From a virus: a stretch of 44,124 nt of DNA. Position numbers and translations under genes: made by a program. Each line of letters begins with the position of its first letter. Position 1 is the stretch's first letter. The notes below the pieces were generated by a model. The model had not been told where the DNA came from. It saw only the letters and a program-made list of their open reading frames with translations, and did not search any database. Below, in pieces: positions 5,648 to 28,609 of the stretch. The stretch lies in IMG/VR virus record IMGVR_UViG_3300048091_000070, positions 1-44,124 of that record; one strand, written 5' to 3'.

Positions 5648-5844
5648 TTGCGTAGCATCCTTGTTTCAAATTCCATGTTGAGGGCGATAGCCAGCGCGAG
5701 CGCCTCCCCGTTCTTGAGTTCGTCTGTGACCACATGGGCCCTACAAACGACTACGGACCCACGAGGGGTCCGCTGTACGTTGTAAGGTCCGGTGGTGGTC
5801 CGCTCGGGCTCTGGATCATTCCAGTCAACCGTTAGCTCTAGCAT
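5644..5844 (-). CDS. 66-residue protein, unknown
   Basis: 66 residues starting at ATG 5844, whose bases overlap the stop of the upstream gene. The first half is beta-like (MLELTVDW, RGSVVVCRAHVV) and the end is helical (GEALALAIALNMEFE). No family recognised; support comes from its place in the overlapping chain of leftward genes. Confidence 0.6.
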   Translation of the reverse strand: MLELTVDWNDPEPERTTTGPYNVQRTPRGSVVVCRAHVVTDELKNGEALALAIALNMEFETRMLRK

Positions 5845-6020
5845 TAGCTCTCCACCCTCTTCATTTCGGACATCACCTTGACCTCAGCGATGAGGTAGGT
5901 GTTGTTGAAGTGATCGTTGTTCCTCTGAGCCTTCTTCAGCTGCTCGCGGCATTCAGCCTCTGTGCCGACACCGACCACGCTACCGCGTGACCAATCGATC
6001 AGAATGAACTCAGGCTTCAT
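5844..6020 (-). CDS. 58-residue protein, unknown
   Basis: The best start is ATG 6020 (MKPEFILIDWSRG), which overlaps the last 11 bases of terC; the frame is open further upstream but would run deep into terC. The N-terminal half looks like a strand plus ...VVGVGTEAECREQLKKA, a pattern I associate with small phage proteins that fold as beta-alpha units. It may be co-translated with terC. Function unknown. Confidence 0.6.
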   Translation of the reverse strand: MKPEFILIDWSRGSVVGVGTEAECREQLKKAQRNNDHFNNTYLIAEVKVMSEMKRVES

Positions 6021-6672
6021 TGACGACCTCTGCCCTACCCACCTTTGAAACCAGACCCACAACGATCACCACGGACACAGCGGTAACGCCCGCCAAGTAG
6101 TGGTCAACGTAGGGCGCGGCCCACGGGTCAGAGGCAATGATGCCACCAGCCACCCAAGCCAACAGAGCGCCACCAGCCCACACGAGGACCGGGAAGCGAC
6201 CAATGACCTTGGAGATGAGTGCGGCGCCCGCGATAACCAGCGGGATCGACAGGAGCACGCCGAGAGCCATGAGCAACTGTGAGCCGTGAGACAGCGCAGC
6301 AATGGCCATGACGTTGTCGAGGCTCATGCTGGCGTCCGCAGCTGCAATGGTGCCGATGGCGGCCCACAGAGTCACTGCGGGCTTCAGGGAGCCTTCGTCT
6401 TCATCCTCGCCCATGATGAGCTTAGCTGCCACGTAGAGCAGGAAGACGCCGCCGATCAGGCTGAGCCCAGGTACGCCGAGAAGCGCCGCAGCGAAGAACG
6501 CCATGGCCACCCGGAGGACGATAGCGGCAACGGTGCCCCCGATGATGCCCCACTTCTGCTGATTAGCTGGTAGCTGACGGCTGACCATCGCGATAACGAG
6601 CGCGTTGTCGCCAGACAGCAACAAGTCAATCCAGACGATGCCGAGAAGCGCGGCCCAGAACATAGTGTCCAT
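6010..6672 (-). CDS. terC: TerC-family integral membrane protein
   Basis: 220 residues with about seven membrane helices. The start ATG 6672 has AAAGGAAA in front; the frame is open upstream but that part is leader. Family hallmarks are seen twice: SGDN at residues 20-23 (IDLLLSGDNALVIAM) and SLDN at 117-120 (MSLDNVMAIA), each within a membrane helix. Between them lies an acidic loop GEDEDEG (88-94). TerC/Alx/YjbE proteins are linked to metal ion (Mn2+) export, tellurite resistance and membrane stress. The gene is at the distal end of the leftward arm, after TerB-like and coiled-coil genes, and has a 219-base folded leader of its own. A complete-looking TerC on a podophage is unusual. Confidence 0.9.
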   Translation of the reverse strand: MDTMFWAALLGIVWIDLLLSGDNALVIAMVSRQLPANQQKWGIIGGTVAAIVLRVAMAFFAAALLGVPGLSLIGGVFLLYVAAKLIMGEDEDEGSLKPAVTLWAAIGTIAAADASMSLDNVMAIAALSHGSQLLMALGVLLSIPLVIAGAALISKVIGRFPVLVWAGGALLAWVAGGIIASDPWAAPYVDHYLAGVTAVSVVIVVGLVSKVGRAEVVNEA

Positions 6673-6891
6673 GATGTTTCCTTTGAATGAATGCCGATAG
6701 GACGCCGGTGTCAGGTCTCCGGTCTCTAGCTTCCCCACCACGGGGCACTGCACCTATCAGCAACTGTGAAACTCGTGCGGGGCTTTCACCCGCTGCGGCC
6801 TCATTCCGAAGCTTTGGCCTCTGTTGGATCAAGAAAGTCTCGCCGTCCAACCGGCGCCCGGTGCCCGTGCACAGACAGTCGGGGAGATAGG
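6673..6891 (-). promoter_or_regulatory. Structured leader of terC (candidate cis-regulatory RNA)
   Basis: 219 bases without a convincing gene in an otherwise gapless arm. On the transcribed strand, GCTGATAGG (6753-6761) pairs with CCTATCGGC (6693-6701), a 9-bp stem with one G-U pair enclosing 51 bases. Inside it CCCC-GTGGT-GGGG and CCGG-AGACCTGACA-CCGG form two hairpins. Further upstream GTTGGA/TCCAAC and GCGGG-TGAAAGC-CCCGC form more. This multi-helix layout just before the terC ribosome site suggests an RNA switch or translation-control element. I could not match it to the yybP-ykoY consensus, the known Mn2+ switch of many terC-like genes. Confidence 0.5.
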
Positions 6892-7125
6892 TTAGGCCAC
6901 GAGGGCCTTGATCTTCTCGGCAACAGCGGTTGCCTTAGCGGCAGCGGCCTTTGCTTCTGCGGCGAGCCGCTCGCTCTCGTCAGCCTTGGCGAAGTGCTCG
7001 GAGGCTTCGTACGCCTTGGCAACCGCAGCGGCCTCCAGCTTCGCGACGGTGTCGGTGAAGTTCGCGATGATCGCCTCAACGTCGTGCTCGACGCGGACGA
7101 AGAGCGCTTTGATCTTTGAGAACAT
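6892..7125 (-). CDS. 77-residue coiled-coil protein in the Ter module
   Basis: An Ala/Glu/Lys-rich, almost entirely helical protein: MFSKIKALFVRVEHDVEAII, then repeated AAAVAKAYEASEHFAKAD and AAEAKAAAAKATAVAEKI. ATG 7125 has AAGGAACACC in front. No membrane segment. Lying between terB and terC, it may be a soluble linker or partner of the membrane complex; that is inference from position only. Confidence 0.7.
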   Translation of the reverse strand: MFSKIKALFVRVEHDVEAIIANFTDTVAKLEAAAVAKAYEASEHFAKADESERLAAEAKAAAAKATAVAEKIKALVA

Positions 7126-7144
7126 GGTGTTCCTTGTTGGTTAG

Positions 7145-7231
7145 CTAGCGACCCCGACCGATCAGGAAGAAGCCGCAGGACAGCACGGCAATGAAGATCA
7201 TCGCCGCGCCGAGAATGTCTTGGGCTGCCAT
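7145..7231 (-). CDS. 28-residue single-helix membrane micropeptide
   Basis: ATG 7231 overlaps the terB stop (TGATG), and the frame runs to TAG at 7145-7147. After MAAQDILGAA the peptide is one hydrophobic helix (MIFIAVLSCGFFLI) ending in GRGR. Coupled start, membrane-helix composition and positive end argue for a real micropeptide, perhaps a TerB or TerC partner. Confidence 0.55.
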   Translation of the reverse strand: MAAQDILGAAMIFIAVLSCGFFLIGRGR

Positions 7232-7665
7232 CAGGCCAGCAGCTTCGCGCCGTCTACGTTCAGCAGCTTGGCGATGTCGTTGAGCACAACCTGCTCCTGC
7301 GCACCGATGCCGTCCTGATCCGCAACGTCAGCCGCGATCAGGAACACGTCCTGACGCACGGACACGTCACGGGTCATCAGGGCCTCAATGAAGCGCTTGT
7401 TCTCCATGCGGCCCGCGCGGGACTTGGCGCGGCTGAGGGCGCCGTTGAGCGCCTCCTCAATCTGCGAGGAGTTGTAGGACGCCGAGACGATGGGGTTGGC
7501 CTGCATGCCCGCAATGGCAGCTTCGATTTCGCTGTCATCAATCGAGCCGTCGGCGGCGGTAACGTTAGCTGCGGCCGAAGCAACGCCCTTCAGGAAGGCC
7601 GCATCGCCCGCGTAGCTGTTGATGGTCTTTTTGGCTTTGGAGAGAAGATTGTCGAGGAGACCCAT
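7231..7665 (-). CDS. terB: TerB-like protein
   Basis: 144 residues with the TerB layout: an N-terminal helix (MGLLDNLLSKAKKTI), then two acidic calcium-loop-like repeats, TAADGSIDDSE (37-46) and ADQDGIGAQEQ (115-125), each followed by a helix. TerB (TerB_N-type/DjlA-like domain) binds divalent metal and membranes and works with TerC in tellurite/stress response complexes. A good ribosome site (AAGGAATATTGCT) precedes ATG 7665. Membrane micropeptides lie on both sides, and terC lies two genes downstream. Together they form a minimal Ter module. Other TerA/D/E/Z-type genes are absent from the window. Confidence 0.8.
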   Translation of the reverse strand: MGLLDNLLSKAKKTINSYAGDAAFLKGVASAAANVTAADGSIDDSEIEAAIAGMQANPIVSASYNSSQIEEALNGALSRAKSRAGRMENKRFIEALMTRDVSVRQDVFLIAADVADQDGIGAQEQVVLNDIAKLLNVDGAKLLA

Positions 7666-7687
7666 AGCAATATTCCTTTTTCAGTGC

Positions 7688-7801
7688 TCAGAAGAACCAG
7701 CGAGACACGGGCATTTTGCGCGTGATCTTCACGGTGATGATGATGAGGTATAGGACGCCGATGGCGCCCAAGAAGTTGTTGGCGAGTACAGCGACAATCA
7801 T
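7688..7801 (-). CDS. 37-residue membrane micropeptide
   Basis: Starts at ATG 7801, overlapping the stop of the 26-residue gene (ATGA), and ends with TGA at 7688-7690. The sequence has a hydrophobic helix (FLGAIGVLYLIIITV) followed by a basic tail KITRKMPVSRWFF, an N-out/C-in type signature by the positive-inside rule. Directly upstream of terB. Unknown function. Confidence 0.6.
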   Translation of the reverse strand: MIVAVLANNFLGAIGVLYLIIITVKITRKMPVSRWFF

Positions 7802-7878
7802 TCAAACCACACACAGATTGCGCAGCAGATGATGAGCGTGGCGCAGAACATGCCCACGATGAATTCAGCTTCGGTCAT
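7798..7878 (-). CDS. 26-residue membrane micropeptide
   Basis: ATG 7878 overlaps the stop of the zincin-like gene (ATGA) and its own TGA overlaps the next ATG. After an acidic start (MTEAEF) it is one Cys-rich hydrophobic helix (IVGMFCATLIICCAICVWF). It belongs to the same coupled chain as the 37-residue peptide and terB. Confidence 0.55.
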   Translation of the reverse strand: MTEAEFIVGMFCATLIICCAICVWFE

Positions 7879-8234
7879 GGTGACTTCTTCAGTCCTCGTT
7901 TGATCCAGTTGAGTAGCTTGGGATTGTCGCGGAACAGCGAGACAAGGCCGGTCTCAAAGGCCACAACCACAACCTCCTCCTCGTAGCCATCAGGCTCCGA
8001 AGGGGTTAGCTCCTTGTCATCGTGAATGACGTGGAGCAGCTCATGGATAACGGTACCCACGAGCCGCTCGGGAGATTGGTGGTTAGCTGGCCAAATAGTT
8101 ATCTCGGCCTTGTCGTAGTTGGTCTCTCCGTAGTCCTCACTAGGACCCGGATCGACCTTGATGCGCCAATCGTAGGCACCAACCTTGATCCTGCGAGGAA
8201 GGGTCTTGAGGACCGCTTCCACATCAGGGGTCAT
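7875..8234 (-). CDS. Zincin-like metallopeptidase
   Basis: 119 residues from ATG 8234, one base after the previous stop; the frame is open upstream but that part overlaps the 63-residue gene and lacks protein character. The motif VIHELLHVIHDD gives HExxH at 64-68 with a further His71, and acidic residues EEE (85-87) could supply the third ligand. An N-terminal segment with YDWRIKVDPG and DKAEITIWP is typical of small phage/SprT- or ImmA-like zinc peptidases. Substrate unknown. Its stop overlaps the first membrane micropeptide, so it is translationally tied to the Ter module. Confidence 0.7.
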   Translation of the reverse strand: MTPDVEAVLKTLPRRIKVGAYDWRIKVDPGPSEDYGETNYDKAEITIWPANHQSPERLVGTVIHELLHVIHDDKELTPSEPDGYEEEVVVVAFETGLVSLFRDNPKLLNWIKRGLKKSP

Positions 8235-9284: not shown

Positions 9285-9722
9285 TTACAGGCCAAGCAGT
9301 GCCTCTTCTGGGGTCCAGCCATTCTTCAGGCGGAACCGCAACGTCGTGTCCGGGATGCCGGTCTTACGGCTCCATTCGGCGCGCGTCATGGTTTCTCCGT
9401 TCAAGGTGATAAGATGGTTGTTACGTCGGTTAGACTGTTGTTCTAACGGGGAGGCCCAGCGGCAGTTATCCTTGCTGTAGGGTCCGTTGTTGTCCTTTCG
9501 ATCAAGCGTGCATCCTTCTGGTCGTGGTCCCATGTCATCCACGAATTGCCAGAAGTCGTCCCACGCTGGATCGACTGTGATGCCACGCGCCCCATAGTTC
9601 TTGTATTTGTTGTTCTTCGGGCTACGGCATCGCTGACGCATCAACGTCCACGTAACATACAGCGGATGGTCCCTACGCCGCCTCGCGACCAAGCAATACC
9701 TCGTGTAGCATCCCCTGCACAT
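9285..9722 (-). CDS. HNH-type homing endonuclease
   Basis: The frame is up to 145 residues from ATG 9722, which would overlap the upstream gene by 50 bases; a TTG/ATG start about 27 codons later is also possible. The core has LYVTWTLMRQRC, NYGARGITVDPAW, then CTLDRKDNNGPYSKDNCRW and a run of basic residues (EQQSNRRNN). This is the layout of phage HNH/His-Me-finger homing endonucleases I know. A C-terminal helix-turn-helix-like segment (MTRAEWSRKTGIPDTTLRF) probably binds DNA. It sits between two metabolic genes with extra non-coding DNA behind it, consistent with insertion as a selfish element. Confidence 0.75.
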   Translation of the reverse strand: MCRGCYTRYCLVARRRRDHPLYVTWTLMRQRCRSPKNNKYKNYGARGITVDPAWDDFWQFVDDMGPRPEGCTLDRKDNNGPYSKDNCRWASPLEQQSNRRNNHLITLNGETMTRAEWSRKTGIPDTTLRFRLKNGWTPEEALLGL

Positions 9723-18264: not shown

Positions 18265-20784
18265 TTAGGCAAAGGCATACTTCGCCCGGTGGACTTCGTT
18301 AAGGTCCAGCTGACCCTTCGTCGGAAGCTGCGGCAGTCGCTTTTGGTTTGCTTCTGACAACTGAGCGCTTGCTGTACTGCGTAGGCACGTTAGTAAGTCA
18401 TCCCGTTGATACATCTGCACAAACTGCTCACGAATGATCTGGTTGAACCTGTCAGCATGTGCCGGAAGGCAACCAAACGAGTCATGGACAGTCACGATAT
18501 CTGTGATGCCTTCGTCGGCGCACGCCCCCACAGTCAGGAGCAAATGAGCCGCGTCGAGCGAATGGACCCAATTGGGCGCAATCGACTGTTGGCACTTCCG
18601 TTTCAAGAGGGGCGCTTCGTCCCCCGTGGCCACGTTGACCTTGATGCGCTCATTGTGCAGCCACAGGCTAAGCGTCTTGGTCTTAGGGGCGTGGTAGCGG
18701 TTGATGCACGGGATGCCTGCCGGTGTGATCCAGCTAACCGGCTTGCCCTCGTGTGCCATCACGCCAGCCAAATCCTTCAGGAAGTCCATGGCCTCAGCGG
18801 GCTTGCGGACTACCTCAGTGATCGCCGCATAGGCCACGCGGCCCATGTAGCGCGCTGCTGCCGCTTGGTCCTTGACAGTCCCGAAGTGGTGGGGCGTCTT
18901 GTGCCGCACGGCCTCAGCTTGCAATGGTGCCATCAGGTCTTCAAAGAACTGATCGCCCATCCCGTTCGCCTCGGAGCTATAGCAGAACGTCATGGTCGAG
19001 CGCTTCAACAGCTTCCTGTCGATGCCCTTGCCATCCTTGTAGCTAAGGAACAGCCGGGCAAATCCCCGCTTCTTTTCGTCCTGGCCCGTCGCATCCTCCT
19101 CGACCATGCGTCGCGCTACCTTAGCCACGATGGCGTAGATGTCCTGCGGCGCTTCGTTGTCCGTGAGGTTCACGAAGCGGCCCTCCTCAGCCAGCGTTGC
19201 CCCGGCCATGTGCTGCAAACCACTGCAAGAGCCATCGAAGCTCACAGGGACATGGCACATATGCGTCGGCCCACTCTGGATGGCAGACACAAGTTCCCGG
19301 CACGCAGCTAGAAACAGGAACGGGCTGTCGGCCTGCGTCCAACCCAAATTGGCCAGCGGGGCTTCCGCATAGCTCCTCAGCGTCTCTTCGTTGTCCTTCG
19401 TCCATTGCACCCTCGCGTCTAGTGGTTTCTTGTCCAGCCCGGTCTCTTCGCCGGGGGCCTTCTGCGCCCAACAGTTGGCAACGTGTACTCGTAGCCAATA
19501 TGTACCCTTTTCGCCAATCGGAAGCCCGTTCTTGAACAGGAAGAGACTGCGCACATGATCGCCCCGCTGGAAATTGAAGCGCGGCAACGGATACACGCGG
19601 CCCCTGAAGTCCATCGTCATTCCCATGTAGAACTCGGGGACCTCGGCCAACCGGTGCGCCTCGGCCATGTCGAGGGCCAACAGCGTCAGGTCGCTGTGGC
19701 GCTGCCGGTTGAGCTTCTGCGCGGACCAGCGTTCCTCGCTAGCTAGCTTGCGCTCGTCTTGGCCTAGCGCGTTCCACTCCTCCTCCGATAGCTTCGGGGG
19801 CACCTCGACCTTGTCGGCCACGGTGAACCCGGGGACATTGACCCCATTGGCTTGCACCTGATCCATCACGCCCAGCAGCCAAGTGTTGATCTTGAACGGG
19901 ACAGCTTGCAGCGTGTTGATGCCCTTCATTGCTGGCGCCATTGTGCCATCAGCTATCGCCTTCTTGACCTCGGCAATCTGGTCGTTGTTGTACGCCTTGA
20001 GGATCGAAACGTCCTTGAGGATACGGGTGTCCTCGGCCGGTCGCTGTTTATAGCTAACCCACGGCTCGGGCGCTGTTAGCCTCGGCATCCACACGGGGCG
20101 CCGGAGGATCATGTCCCTGATGGCATCGCTCATGAACTTGTGGGCCTCTTCGGTCACCATCAGAACACGGGTCTTCTCAGGGACGCCTAGCGCCTTATTC
20201 CAAGTGGTGAACTCTTCCCAGCGGAACACGTCCGGCAGCCCTTCGGTCAACAGGTTGGCGCACCACACTCCCGCAATGGTTCGCTCCTCCGGTTGCCACT
20301 CCTCGCCAACGAAACCGGCCTTCTTAGCTACAGCACGGGCGGCCGACTGCCGCATTTTCTGATTGCCGTGTTTCTTCTCAGCGTACTTTTCGGCACGCTC
20401 GGCGAGCTTCTTATTGGCCTTGAGTAGTCCTGCCCGGAAGCACTCGGCCTCCAGATTGTCAGCGAACATTTTGAACGCCTGCACCTGATAGGTCCAGCGT
20501 CCAGCAACCACATGCAGGCCGGTTTGAAGGCACACTAGCGCTACAAGCTCCGGGTCAAGCTGCCTCAGCATCCGCTCAAGGTTATACTCAGGGGCGTTAG
20601 CTCGGCAGGGTGTCTTCCACTTCTCCCTCAGGTATTCAGTGAGGCGCGGCAGCTGCTGGCCACTGAGGGCCATAGCGCCTGTAGTCGATCCTTTGCCGAA
20701 GCTGGCGGCTTGTCGCTTGTCCCGCTTCTTCAGGGATGCTGCGGCCAGCTGGTATTCACGGGCTTCCATAGTTGTCTGGAGCAT
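18265..20784 (-). CDS. Single-subunit T7-like RNA polymerase
   Basis: 839 residues from ATG 20784, preceded by AAGGGGAACAG; the frame stays open upstream, but that part is leader. In the C-terminal half are the catalytic motifs: VSFDGSCSGLQHMAG (first Asp), KRSTMTFCYSS with the Lys and Tyr spaced as in T7 K631/Y639, and IVTVHDSFGCLPAHA (second Asp, T7 D812). It transcribes later phage genes from its own promoters. Unlike T7, its gene is on the opposite strand to the virion genes. Operator-like words and a TTGACA box precede it, so host RNA polymerase and a repressor probably control it. Confidence 0.95.
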   Translation of the reverse strand: MLQTTMEAREYQLAAASLKKRDKRQAASFGKGSTTGAMALSGQQLPRLTEYLREKWKTPCRANAPEYNLERMLRQLDPELVALVCLQTGLHVVAGRWTYQVQAFKMFADNLEAECFRAGLLKANKKLAERAEKYAEKKHGNQKMRQSAARAVAKKAGFVGEEWQPEERTIAGVWCANLLTEGLPDVFRWEEFTTWNKALGVPEKTRVLMVTEEAHKFMSDAIRDMILRRPVWMPRLTAPEPWVSYKQRPAEDTRILKDVSILKAYNNDQIAEVKKAIADGTMAPAMKGINTLQAVPFKINTWLLGVMDQVQANGVNVPGFTVADKVEVPPKLSEEEWNALGQDERKLASEERWSAQKLNRQRHSDLTLLALDMAEAHRLAEVPEFYMGMTMDFRGRVYPLPRFNFQRGDHVRSLFLFKNGLPIGEKGTYWLRVHVANCWAQKAPGEETGLDKKPLDARVQWTKDNEETLRSYAEAPLANLGWTQADSPFLFLAACRELVSAIQSGPTHMCHVPVSFDGSCSGLQHMAGATLAEEGRFVNLTDNEAPQDIYAIVAKVARRMVEEDATGQDEKKRGFARLFLSYKDGKGIDRKLLKRSTMTFCYSSEANGMGDQFFEDLMAPLQAEAVRHKTPHHFGTVKDQAAAARYMGRVAYAAITEVVRKPAEAMDFLKDLAGVMAHEGKPVSWITPAGIPCINRYHAPKTKTLSLWLHNERIKVNVATGDEAPLLKRKCQQSIAPNWVHSLDAAHLLLTVGACADEGITDIVTVHDSFGCLPAHADRFNQIIREQFVQMYQRDDLLTCLRSTASAQLSEANQKRLPQLPTKGQLDLNEVHRAKYAFA
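18368..18391 (-). repeat. 24-bp direct repeat, copy inside the RNA polymerase 3' end
   Basis: CTTGCTGTACTGCGT + AGGCACGTT (plus strand) matches a copy at 20798-20821 at 22 of 24 positions, in the same orientation, 2430 bases away. This copy encodes part of the RNA polymerase C-terminal region, about 130 bases upstream of the next gene's start. Confidence 0.7.
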
Positions 20785-20797
20785 CTGTTCCCCTTTT

Positions 20798-20821
20798 CTT
20801 GCTGTACTGCGTCGGCGCGTT
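20798..20821 (-). repeat. 24-bp direct repeat, copy in the RNA polymerase leader
   Basis: Second copy of the 24-base repeat (CTTGCTGTACTGCGT + CGGCGCGTT), lying just upstream of the RNA polymerase ribosome site. A repeat of promoter length placed before and at the end of the polymerase gene could be a phage promoter; it could also be a trace of an old recombination event. Confidence 0.7.
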
Positions 20822-20882
20822 CGCGGCCTAACTAGTTGGTTTTGTTGGATTGTTACCCAAAACAACATATCTGCATGGCGGT

Positions 20883-20998: not shown

Positions 20999-22117
20999 TT
21001 AGCCGGGGGCCTCTTTGGCCCTTTTGAGCCGTTTCCCCGCGTACTCGTCAAGTTTTTTCACGGCTTCCAGCTGGTCCTCAAGGTCAACGTGATCATAGAT
21101 TTCGTTGGCCTCGTCGCTGATATGTCCAAGCATTTCCTTGCGAATTTTCTTCGAGACGCCAGCTTTCCGTAGTCGCGTGTTGCGTGCGTGGCGAAGCGAA
21201 TGCACAACCAAGTTGCCTTCAATCCCCGCCTCTTTACACGCGGATTGGAAGATAGTTAGCAATCGGTCAGCAGTTGGCAGGCTTCCCGTGGCGATCAGGG
21301 CCCTGATGTTCTTAGCTAATTCGGCGGAAAAGATTACAGGGCGTGACTTCTTGTTCTTGGTTTGACCGCGCTTCAAATGGAGCACGCCGACGAGAACAGG
21401 CGTTCCCGTATCGTCCTCTACCTGTTCGATTGTGATCTGCTCCGGCGTCAGCTTCTGTAGCTCCCCTTGCCGCAACCCGGTCTGAGCGATGCAGTCGAGG
21501 CACATAGCCTCAATGCGGTTGCCATGGCTCTCGATGAGCCCGAGCACAACCTCGTCTTGCCCGATGGCCAAGATGTCCCTATGCCGCCTGTCGTCGGTCT
21601 CGTTGAGCCAAGGGACGCTTGGCTTGGCCGGGATTATCTCCTCGTTGACAGCCCACGTCAGAACGCCGCTCGCGGCCGATAGGTAGCGGTTCATACGCGC
21701 GTTGCTCATGTGGCCACGCGCCTTGTCGGGCCCCCGCTTGCCCTCGGGTGTCTTGCGCGTAGCTAGGGCCTCGGTGATCAGCTTCAGGCTGCCACGGGTC
21801 ACGCGGCTGATACCCAAGTCCCCTATGACCTCGCAGCAATAGGCGAGCCGCTGCATCAGGTCGTCGTCGGTCTTCTGCCACTTGCCCTTGGGGCCTCCGG
21901 CGGCCTTAGCCTTCTCGCATACCTGGCTGAACGTTAGCTCGCCCTCGGACGGCCCGCCATCGTCAATGGTCGGCGGCTCGCGGCCGAACACTTGGGTAAA
22001 GGATTCATAGTCCTTCGCGGCCTGCATTGTCTTGAAGCGCCGCTTCTTCTTGCCCTTGGACCACTCGCCCACAAAGGAGCCAGTGGGCTTTCCGTTCTTC
22101 TTGTCCACGTATGCCAT
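20999..22117 (-). CDS. int: Tyrosine integrase
   Basis: 372 residues. A basic N-terminal arm-binding part (GKKKRRFKTMQAA) and a core-binding SAM-like domain (about 60-175) precede the catalytic domain. The catalytic set is R216 (TGLRQGEL), a Lys in QTKNKKSRPV, H306 and R309 (VVHSLRHARNT), H332 (EMLGHIS) and Y341 (EIYDHVD). It integrates and excises the genome at attP, whose tRNA-like core lies 20 bases past its stop codon. The gene follows a CxxC small protein by three bases, and both are downstream of a winged-helix gene with a good host promoter. Confidence 0.95.
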   Translation of the reverse strand: MAYVDKKNGKPTGSFVGEWSKGKKKRRFKTMQAAKDYESFTQVFGREPPTIDDGGPSEGELTFSQVCEKAKAAGGPKGKWQKTDDDLMQRLAYCCEVIGDLGISRVTRGSLKLITEALATRKTPEGKRGPDKARGHMSNARMNRYLSAASGVLTWAVNEEIIPAKPSVPWLNETDDRRHRDILAIGQDEVVLGLIESHGNRIEAMCLDCIAQTGLRQGELQKLTPEQITIEQVEDDTGTPVLVGVLHLKRGQTKNKKSRPVIFSAELAKNIRALIATGSLPTADRLLTIFQSACKEAGIEGNLVVHSLRHARNTRLRKAGVSKKIRKEMLGHISDEANEIYDHVDLEDQLEAVKKLDEYAGKRLKRAKEAPG

Positions 22118-25386: not shown

Positions 25387-26241
25387 TCACTCCGCCAGCG
25401 CCGCACCGCCGTATTGGGCGAGCGTCTCCTTGAGCCATTTGACGGGCTCTTTTACCGTAGGGTCCTTAGCGTGAGCCGCGCCAACGTAGAGAACCTCACC
25501 TGTAACGCCTAAGGCGTTAGTGTACAATTCGCGCGCTGTTCGCTGGTAACCTTCAAAATCGTTGTGGGGCCAGCCGCCCATGTAACCGCCCTTAGCGATT
25601 TGATTGCAGGAAGCGTAGCCTAGGCCGCGCGTAACGCACGGGTCGGTGAGCATATGCGCGGCTCGCGCCAAGTCGAGCGGGGCAGTGTCGAGCTTAGTGA
25701 GCACGTGAGCCCCTCTCCCCGTTGAACCAAGGCAAACCGCCGTCCAAATCTCAACCGGGCGATTAGCTGACAGCAAGCGGACCAAGGCGAGCAGCGTTGC
25801 GCCGCGCTTGCGCATAGTCTCAACATCAATCATCGCGGACAGCGTCATTGACACGATGATGGTGAGAGGCCCCTGCTCTGTCATGACGCGCTCGCGGCGC
25901 CGCATGGCCATAGGATGGCCAGCAAGGAAGGCCGGAACGCAAGGCGATCCGCCAACCACGTCAAGCCGATTGCGCCATACGGGCGAAACGAATTGATCCG
26001 CCTCTAGCGTTTCGAGCAGCTGCTCGGAGGCAGCAACTCCGGACAAATCACCGTTGCGCACACAATCGAGCGCTTGCGCATAGGTTTTGTCTCCATACCA
26101 GCTGTTGCCCCTAGACGCCCCTTTGCGCTCCGATTGCTCCGCAGGAACAGAGGCAGCCAACTCTGCAAAACCCTGCATGTCGCAAACCGCAAAATAGTCC
26201 GTTCCGCCTTTAAGCCCGCGCCGTTCCGATTTAGTGATCAT
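25387..26241 (-). CDS. DUF7192-like partner of the MoxR-type ATPase
   Basis: 284 residues. GDKTYAQALDCVRNGDLSGV (49-68), RLDVVGGSPCVPAFLAGHP and the later hydrophobic block GPLTIIVSMTLSA...KRGATLLALVRLL recall DUF7192-type phage proteins, which I have seen next to MoxR-like ATPases. The second half could be a von Willebrand A-like fold. The gene follows the AAA+ gene and has its own candidate promoter inside a perfect 13-bp inverted repeat. In MoxR/VWA pairs the ATPase remodels a target that the partner selects. Family assignment needs an HMM search. Confidence 0.55.
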   Translation of the reverse strand: MITKSERRGLKGGTDYFAVCDMQGFAELAASVPAEQSERKGASRGNSWYGDKTYAQALDCVRNGDLSGVAASEQLLETLEADQFVSPVWRNRLDVVGGSPCVPAFLAGHPMAMRRRERVMTEQGPLTIIVSMTLSAMIDVETMRKRGATLLALVRLLSANRPVEIWTAVCLGSTGRGAHVLTKLDTAPLDLARAAHMLTDPCVTRGLGYASCNQIAKGGYMGGWPHNDFEGYQRTARELYTNALGVTGEVLYVGAAHAKDPTVKEPVKWLKETLAQYGGAALAE

Positions 26242-26267
26242 TGGTCCGCTCCGTTGTTGGTCCGGGT

Positions 26268-26312
26268 ATCCTATAGGTTGCCATTAGCCTGTCAATACCA
26301 ATGGCAACCTAT
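26268..26312 (-). promoter_or_regulatory. Promoter inside a perfect 13-bp inverted repeat (operator)
   Basis: ATAGGTTGCCATT (26273-26285) and AATGGCAACCTAT (26300-26312) are perfect inverted copies 14 bases apart. Between them, on the minus strand, is a consensus TTGACA (26290-26295); 16 bases on is TAGGAT (26268-26273). Each arm contains TGGCAACCTA. This is the classic form of a repressor-controlled host promoter and lies just upstream of the 284-residue gene. Confidence 0.75.
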
Positions 26313-26322
26313 TTGTTGAAAA

Positions 26323-27585
26323 TTATGCAGCGTCAACCATGCGGCGCTGGTCCGGTGTCAACTCTGCCAGATATGTCAATTCGGCAGCCTCTTCAAACGT
26401 CATGCCAGCGCCGATGATAGCTGCCCCCGCTTGCGTCATGCGCGGATCGATTTGCACCTTGATCCCGGCCTTCTGAGCGTTAGCGCGGGCTTTCTGGACG
26501 CGCTTGGCCCAATCGACATTACCGGAGATATCCCGCTCCAAAGCCTCGTCATAGCCCCAAGAAATGCGAACGGGGAAACGAGACTTGATTGCACCGTCAA
26601 GGCGATTGCGGCCGACGAATTCAGCCGTGGCGCCGTTGCCGAACGTGTTGCCAGCGGCGATGATAATGCTGTCAGGGTGGCGGTTGACAAGCGCGTCAGG
26701 GAATTCGGTGGAGCCATTGGCCATTGCGCCCGCAAGCGCCAACAGAGGCGAATTGTCCGAGCTGTCAATCTCGTCAAACAGGTAAACAGCTGGACGGCCG
26801 AAAGCCTTGCGGAAAGGCGTTTCGTGATAGTTGCCCGCTGCATCCTTGAAGCCGAGCAATTGGTGATCCATGCTGATTGCGCCGTTAGTGTAGAATTCGA
26901 GGCCAAGCGCCTTAGCCAGCTGCTCAACAGCATGGGTTTTGCCGCTACCAGTAGGGCCGACAAGCATAATGTTTGGGTGGCGACCATTGGCCTGACGCGA
27001 CGACGCGACCTTAAGCAGCTGCTCGAATTTGGGATGAACGCGGCCTTCCACCTTGTATGTGCTGCCGTCGTATTTCTTGAGTTCAATGGTGCGGACAGGG
27101 GAATGCTTGGCGATAAGGTCGGGCAGCTGAGCCAGCAAGTCAAAGATTTGATCGTTGACGATAGCCGCGACCGCTTTGTTATCCATCGGCGCGCTACCCT
27201 GAGACTTGGCGAGCGCTTCAGCAAGCAGGGCAGCTGCCGTAGCTACGTCAGACGCGGCGTTATCATTGGTATTCATTGCGAAGGTTTCTTCCTTAGTGGC
27301 ATGGGTGGCGTTAGTGCCATTGGACGCGGCGGATTGCGCTGCGCTAGCAGTGCCTTGAGACAGGCGCAGGATATTGAGCGAAGCATCGCTGATATCGTTC
27401 CAAGCGTTCTCTAGCTCTGCAAACGAGAGGCGGGCGGCATAGGTTGACGGGACGCCATTAGCTGACAGCCATTTGCGCAAGGCGAGCTTGGCGGGATGCT
27501 TAGCGTCCTGTGCCATACCGGAGAAGCTGAGGTAGCCACGGGGGGCAGAGATGGCAGAGGAAGTGGCGTGTTCGTTGGTCGTCAT
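26323..27585 (-). CDS. MoxR-like AAA+ ATPase
   Basis: 420 residues from ATG 27585 (site CGGAG in front); 41 more upstream codons are open but lack a site. N-terminal part up to about 165 is low-complexity and Ala/Ser/Asn-rich after a SAP-like segment (RKWLSANGVPSTYAARLSFA). AAA+ core: Walker A GPTGSGKT (210-217), Walker B YLFDEID (268-274), sensor IIIAAGNTFGNG, then arginine finger region NRLDGAIKSRFP. This is the AAA_5/MoxR type that remodels protein complexes. It is the first leftward gene after the control region, so among the first expressed. Confidence 0.85.
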   Translation of the reverse strand: MTTNEHATSSAISAPRGYLSFSGMAQDAKHPAKLALRKWLSANGVPSTYAARLSFAELENAWNDISDASLNILRLSQGTASAAQSAASNGTNATHATKEETFAMNTNDNAASDVATAAALLAEALAKSQGSAPMDNKAVAAIVNDQIFDLLAQLPDLIAKHSPVRTIELKKYDGSTYKVEGRVHPKFEQLLKVASSRQANGRHPNIMLVGPTGSGKTHAVEQLAKALGLEFYTNGAISMDHQLLGFKDAAGNYHETPFRKAFGRPAVYLFDEIDSSDNSPLLALAGAMANGSTEFPDALVNRHPDSIIIAAGNTFGNGATAEFVGRNRLDGAIKSRFPVRISWGYDEALERDISGNVDWAKRVQKARANAQKAGIKVQIDPRMTQAGAAIIGAGMTFEEAAELTYLAELTPDQRRMVDAA

Positions 27586-27828
27586 GTCCGTTAGCTCCGT
27601 TGTGTGTGGTTCGCCGTTGCCCCCTATGAACAGCATTTGGCACAGGGTTGCAATAGCTAATCGTTGCCCAAAGCTAACTTTAGGCCGAATGCATAGCAGG
27701 GATTCCAATGGCGCATGGCTGCCCTATCGCTCCCTATCGGCCATGGGGAACAGGGGGCAGCTAGCGGGGGCAGCTAGAGGCGACGGGTTGGCATGGGGTT
27801 AGTTAGCTGCCATTGGGCGCAACGTGCT

Positions 27829-28534: not shown

Positions 28535-28609
28535 TGGCGTGTAGCTCAATGGTAGAGCACCTCGCTGTTAACGAGGCGGTTGCTGGTTCGAGTCCAGCCG
28601 TGCCAGCCA
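28535..28609 (+). tRNA. tRNA-Asn (anticodon GTT)
   Basis: Full cloverleaf: acceptor TGGCGTG pairs with CGTGCCA (two wobble pairs). The D-arm is GCTC-AATGGTA-GAGC, anticodon arm CCTCG-CTGTTAA-CGAGG, T-arm GCTGG-TTCGAGT-CCAGC; discriminator G and CCA are encoded. It sits 62 bases before the first rightward gene and is probably cut out of that transcript. It could top up AAC decoding for Asn-rich virion proteins or replace a host tRNA cut by a defence nuclease. Confidence 0.95.

Follow-up and report, generated by a model that had tools for sequence, protein, structure and literature searches.

We analysed a window of 44,124 bases, which is an entire IMG/VR viral record (IMGVR_UViG_3300048091_000070), and found that it encodes TerB followed in the same direction by TerC. 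This two-gene order is conserved across unrelated phages and is accompanied by a conserved membrane micropeptide of 37 amino acids (aa), here called mp37. A preliminary description of the same DNA had placed TerB and TerC in a membrane-stress module of a temperate podophage, together with a zincin-like peptidase, three membrane micropeptides and a coiled-coil protein. We tentatively read the genes, at slightly less than an even chance, as a minimal Ter module of the phage that would help the infected cell to cope with metal (probably Mn2+) and envelope stress.

Results

TerC and TerB proteins of the window

TerC scored well above the cut-offs of Pfam PF03741 (E 4.8e-42, 144.2 bits; cut-off 27.8) and of NCBIfam TIGR03717 (YjbE; 188.9 bits; cut-off 134.8), by which it is assigned to the YjbE subfamily of the TerC family. 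It has the described 220 residues and both S-x-D-N motifs, as SGDN and SLDN, and the residues D16, D22, D113 and D119 were invariant among 34 aligned phage TerCs. An AlphaFold2 model showed seven long helices (pLDDT 82.5).

TerB matched PHROG_632 'tellurite resistance' (7.2e-19) and contains the two acidic motifs reported earlier, ADGSIDDSE and DQDGIGAQE, which are largely conserved. Among 17 relatives, 6 matched the Pfam TerB profile at E<=0.001 (best 5.5e-12), and a remote profile match to the solved Klebsiella TerB 2jxu was detected (E 0.0015). The predicted model was helical (pLDDT 85), and its best structural match in the Protein Data Bank (PDB) was 2ou3, a cyanobacterial COG3793 tellurite-resistance protein, with a probability of 0.94 but an E of 0.31 and a TM of ~0.4, which makes it a weak match. 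The family assignments of the preliminary description are supported, with TerB as a divergent member whose Pfam score is slightly below the cut-off. When the module proteins were compared with the PADLOC defence profiles, no known anti-phage defence system was matched, apart from a weak 16-bit match of TerB to ThsA.

Recurrence of the TerB-TerC pair in phages

Scanning viral contigs with the TerC profile gave 68 loci. Of these 68 TerC-bearing contigs, 40 had TerB a short way upstream of TerC on the same strand; several of the 40 are near-duplicates and nine are more divergent (L163, L164, L167, L169, L170, L172, L173, L194 and L199). All contigs with a TerC at least 50% identical to that of the window had TerB upstream, with L168 as the only exception. 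The other 28 loci, most with a TerC below 43% identity, were without TerB and had TelA, vWA or TerD nearby, or nothing that was found. Seen from the side of TerB, phage loci with a TerB at least 49% identical to that of the window always had TerC just downstream on the same strand, and 27 viral loci whose TerB was below 40% identity had no TerC nearby. The two genes are 17 kb apart in the isolated Rhizobium phage RHph_I1_18. The pair therefore recurs as the linked unit that had been proposed, and its members are not random passengers never found together.

A relative of the RNA polymerase of the window was present in 13 of 28 TerB-TerC contigs (42-92% identity), the others being large contigs without it. 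Methylobacterium indicum plasmid pVL1_2 (NZ_AP024147.1; loci L132 and L133), listed as non-mobilizable, also carries the pair, and because it encodes capsid, terminase, tail sheath and baseplate proteins it is a contractile-tail phage-plasmid. Profiles for TerD (PF02342) and TelA were silent in the window and in 16 other TerB-TerC phages (17 genomes in total), and scored on the controls (two TerD, one TelA).

A distant TerB was also seen immediately 5' of TerC in two genomes of the Methylobacterium family group (L231 and L232), so the two-gene order exists in cellular genomes or their prophages as well. A tmRNA gene of the permuted alphaproteobacterial type (L167 4033-4304) was located ~250 nt upstream of TerB on the 72-kb integrase-bearing viral contig of L018; either the phage carries a tmRNA or the gene marks the edge of a prophage.

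Ancestry and selection

In a tree of 75 TerC sequences, several of them long-branched, 19 TerCs of TerB-TerC phages formed one clade apart from the 35 bacterial TerCs included (UFBoot 95, SH-aLRT 78). L169, L170, L173 and L199 formed a second group, and the position of L172 was unsettled. A recent capture from a Methylobacterium host was not supported by this tree, and the closest chromosomal TerB genes have no adjacent TerC. The dN/dS values, 0.06-0.27 for TerB and 0.18-0.34 for TerC, indicate purifying selection on both genes. The TerB and TerC distances were correlated (r 0.87), and among close kin TerB alleles only ~68% alike have been swapped while the pair stays.

Micropeptides and neighbouring genes

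The consensus of mp37 is MIVAxLANHxLDAxGxxxIIxxTxKIARGYPVSRWFF, and it was found in 30 of the 40 TerB-TerC contigs. Seven close relatives of the window have contigs that cover this region, and all of them show the order mp37-TerB-TerC. It is immediately 5' of TerB in the T7-like phages and in L016, and ~1.3-4 kb downstream of TerC in L008, L009, L011, L012 and L017. Among the loci compared in this analysis, the only collection searched for mp37, the TerB-only loci did not have it. In those close T7-like relatives and relatives of the L030 type that were examined, a hydrophobic peptide of 21-31 aa and variable sequence begins at the TerB stop or no more than a few codons from it; it was not seen in L014 or L016.

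The gene overlaps and the three membrane micropeptides of the preliminary description (26, 37 and 28 aa) could be confirmed from the sequence. ATGA overlaps join the genes of the zincin, the 26-aa peptide and mp37, a gap of 22 nt precedes TerB, and the 558 nt between terB and terC hold small genes and a structured RNA (Table 1). The composition proposed for the module stood in part: TerB, TerC and mp37 recur together, whereas the zincin and the coiled-coil protein were seen next to them in close T7-like kin only and were rejected as module parts. Because TerB-TerC and mp37 recur without them, the zincin and, probably, the 77-aa protein are placed outside the core module.

Table 1. Location of the Ter genes, their neighbours and the lifestyle genes in the window.
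Feature	Position	Strand	Description
terC	6010..6672	-	220-aa YjbE-type TerC, seven predicted transmembrane helices
terB	7231..7665	-	divergent TerB of 144 aa; helical in the predicted model; both acidic motifs largely conserved
mp37	7688..7801	-	single-helix membrane micropeptide of 37 aa, conserved; immediately 5' of terB
28-aa membrane micropeptide	7145..7231	-	shares one base with the TerB stop codon
26-aa membrane micropeptide	7798..7878	-	upstream of mp37; L001 has a similar peptide, but it is not general
Structured RNA (model R1)	6775..6886	-	~112 nt, terC leader; predicted hairpins; matches no Rfam family
77-aa helical protein	6892..7125	-	coiled-coil-like; close T7-like kin only
119-aa HELLH zincin-like protein	7875..8234	-	PHROG_1233; close T7-like kin only
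Small protein	5844..6020	-	overlaps the terC stop; in several, not all, T7-like relatives
T7-like RNA polymerase	18265..20868	-	upstream of the Ter genes, same direction
Tyrosine integrase	20999..22117	-	R...HxxR...H...Y present; looks intact; equips the phage for lysogeny

Phage genome, lifestyle and presumed host

The minus-strand block encodes a T7-like RNA polymerase, a single-stranded DNA-binding protein (SSB) of the Gp2.5 type, endonuclease I-like and endonuclease VII-like proteins, a primase/helicase, a DNA polymerase and an RNA ligase, and the Ter genes are near the far end of this leftward block. The integrase and a regulator are located just upstream of the RNA polymerase, and the tail, portal, scaffold and capsid genes are on the plus strand. 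On this gene content, namely the T7-like polymerase and replication block, an integrase with its catalytic residues and the plus-strand structural genes, the window is classed as a temperate-type T7-like podophage, in line with the preliminary description. A phage integrase was found in 15 of the 20 records tested. The five without it were one fragment of the main group, three records of the second group and L285, which showed no Ter genes in the part read; all near-complete carriers of the main clade that were tested had an integrase. The Ter genes of L030-type phages are between the RNA polymerase and SSB. The phage of the window probably infects Methylobacterium-type soil or plant bacteria, since the nearest bacterial and plasmid TerBs found come from Methylobacterium.

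The window also has a tRNA-Asn(gtt) gene (28535-28609, plus strand), and Rhizobium phage RHEph21 has a tRNA-Asn(gtt) too, close to its capsid gene. An AAA ATPase-like protein (PHROG_249, 'porphyrin biosynthesis'; 25387-27708, minus strand) adjoins a PHROG_1909 protein upstream of the integrase region. An HNH endonuclease gene (9285-9722, minus strand) flanked by two small genes is possibly a recent insertion, because no counterpart was detected at that site in the relatives compared.

The RNA leader of terC

A structured RNA, which the preliminary description did not include, is located in the 219-nt gap preceding terC. In this RNA, named R1, a loop-loop contact between GUUGGA and UCCAAC is possible. 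It precedes terC in the window, L001 (5794-5908), L005/L006 (3898-4016 in L005) and L015 (5793-5907), and in the integrase-bearing phage L020 (8414-8528, minus strand) it is ahead of an unrelated small gene with no Ter genes nearby. Both sides were changed in four pairs among the five sequences, a covariation that is suggestive only, and the fold energy of the terC leader was not unusual against shuffles. The idea that R1 is a widespread element was rejected: only five distinct places are known, a search of 248 Methylobacterium family-group genomes gave none, and a scan with a looser pattern gave only chance matches beyond these. A scan for a host-type promoter or terminator belonging to the module itself gave no more than chance beside it. 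The Ter genes are probably made during expression and replication of the phage genome, because they share the leftward block with the genes for RNA polymerase and replication, and no nearby promoter of host type was found.

Discussion

In the reading that we place first, TerC, with its conserved membrane aspartates, would act at the inner membrane, moving or delivering a divalent metal that is most likely Mn2+. TerB, which is soluble and acidic, would bind metal and dock on TerC, and mp37 and the peptide overlapping the terB stop may adjust the complex or hold it in place. Probably produced during expression and replication of the phage genome, the Ter proteins would maintain the metal balance and envelope of the infected cell. 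Metal transport or metalation by the phage TerC is predicted from its family membership: Mn efflux activity is described for TerC proteins, which also load metal into exported enzymes at the secretion machinery (PMC10550928). TerC has been reported to form a complex with TerB, Mn(II) induces terBCDE, and terC adds to the resistance of K. pneumoniae to Zn, Mn and phages (PMC12054061).

Several observations weigh against this reading. The TerC of K. pneumoniae is reported not to act as an efflux pump for Zn or Mn (PMC12054061), and no significant structural match for the phage TerC was found in the PDB. The TerB of the window stays slightly under the cut-off of Pfam TerB (PF05099; 22.8 vs 24.4 bits). 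The terC leader is not a yybP-ykoY manganese riboswitch (RF00080), with no match at the gathering score nor at E<=5, and the expression timing suggested above is deduced from the gene order together with a weak promoter scan.

The link to temperate phages leaves two alternatives open. The stronger, to which we give roughly half the weight of the metal and envelope reading, is superinfection exclusion, in which changes made by TerB-TerC to the envelope of the lysogen or infected cell would defeat rival phages. The integrases of the near-complete main-clade carriers agree with exclusion, bacterial ter genes inhibit phages, loss of terC led to larger plaques in K. pneumoniae (PMC12054061), and an action of Ter proteins against superinfecting phages has been proposed for jumbo phages (PMC7824862). 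However, the genes lie beside replication genes, in L030-type phages in the polymerase-SSB interval, and not at the repressor/integrase region, and the ThsA match is the only one to a defence profile.

A little less probable again is that the module is cargo by which a lysogen in soil or on plants better withstands metals, tellurite or oxidative stress. The temperate carriers, the classical roles of Ter genes and the presence of the pair in a phage-plasmid of a Methylobacterium isolate favour this, but most of the presumed host group already has a YjbE-type TerC (the TerC profile matched in 282 of 298 genomes), the minimal tellurite-resistance unit named in the literature is TerC-TerD and not TerB-TerC (PMC12054061), and no promoter of its own was seen near the module. 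Use during infection fits better than lysogen cargo, because the genes are among replication genes in two different arrangements.

We consider it unlikely, though worth stating, that unrelated temperate phages of one bacterial group have a dedicated membrane complex of TerB, TerC and mp37, whose metal movement would block rival phages or protect the replicating phage, and which in some phages would have terC under a new metal- or metabolite-sensing RNA (R1). Methylobacterium genomes do hold TerC and TerB relatives, but host-derived passengers without selected function, together by chance, are very improbable given the low dN/dS, the gene order conserved across unrelated phages, the single old phage clade, the conserved micropeptide and the exchange of TerB alleles with the pair kept.

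The function of ter genes has been an open question for decades. A two-gene version kept by unrelated phages without TerD and TelA is a natural minimal system, which suggests that TerB and TerC can act as a unit, and the pair offers a small construct for studying metal transport, TerB-TerC binding and phage exclusion. Its companion mp37 represents a new conserved family of membrane micropeptides in phages.

Comparison with known systems

The novelty claimed in the preliminary description has to be narrowed. Ter genes in phages and the proposal that they counter superinfecting phages are already published (PMC7824862, PMC11256456), as are phage terB genes (PMC8421299, PMC6536676). The two-gene TerB-TerC form in temperate phages, its micropeptides and the structured RNA before terC appear to be undescribed; neither the two-gene form nor mp37 was found in the literature searched, the coverage of which was limited and is no proof of absence.

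In the ter operon terZABCDEF (plasmid R478, E. coli, Klebsiella), TerB is likewise followed by TerC in the same direction, and the two families are those of the window; published work associates this operon with metals and tellurite, with colicins and with the inhibition of phages. In comparison, the window has no TerD or TelA match, its TerC is the short YjbE type (220 aa, against 346 aa for the R478 form), and the micropeptides and RNA leader are extra. Otagovirus-type and jumbo phages also encode a YjbE-type TerC in a Ter cluster (TelA-vWA-TerC-TerD; PMC7824862), but these clusters have TelA, vWA and TerD with no TerB beside TerC, whereas the window has TerB and neither TelA nor TerD, and the two types of TerC are in separate parts of the tree. 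The Bacillus proteins MeeF, MeeY and YjbE belong to the same TerC family, with the phage protein in the YjbE subfamily; they are described without a TerB partner, and meeY is under a Mn riboswitch that the phage leader does not match (PMC10550928). Single phage terB genes are known from PMBT3, Lana, Paracoccus Pyei1 and Salmonella SP-058/076 (PMC8421299, PMC6536676), and while the terB of PMBT3 was reported without companions, the TerB of the window is accompanied by TerC and micropeptides.

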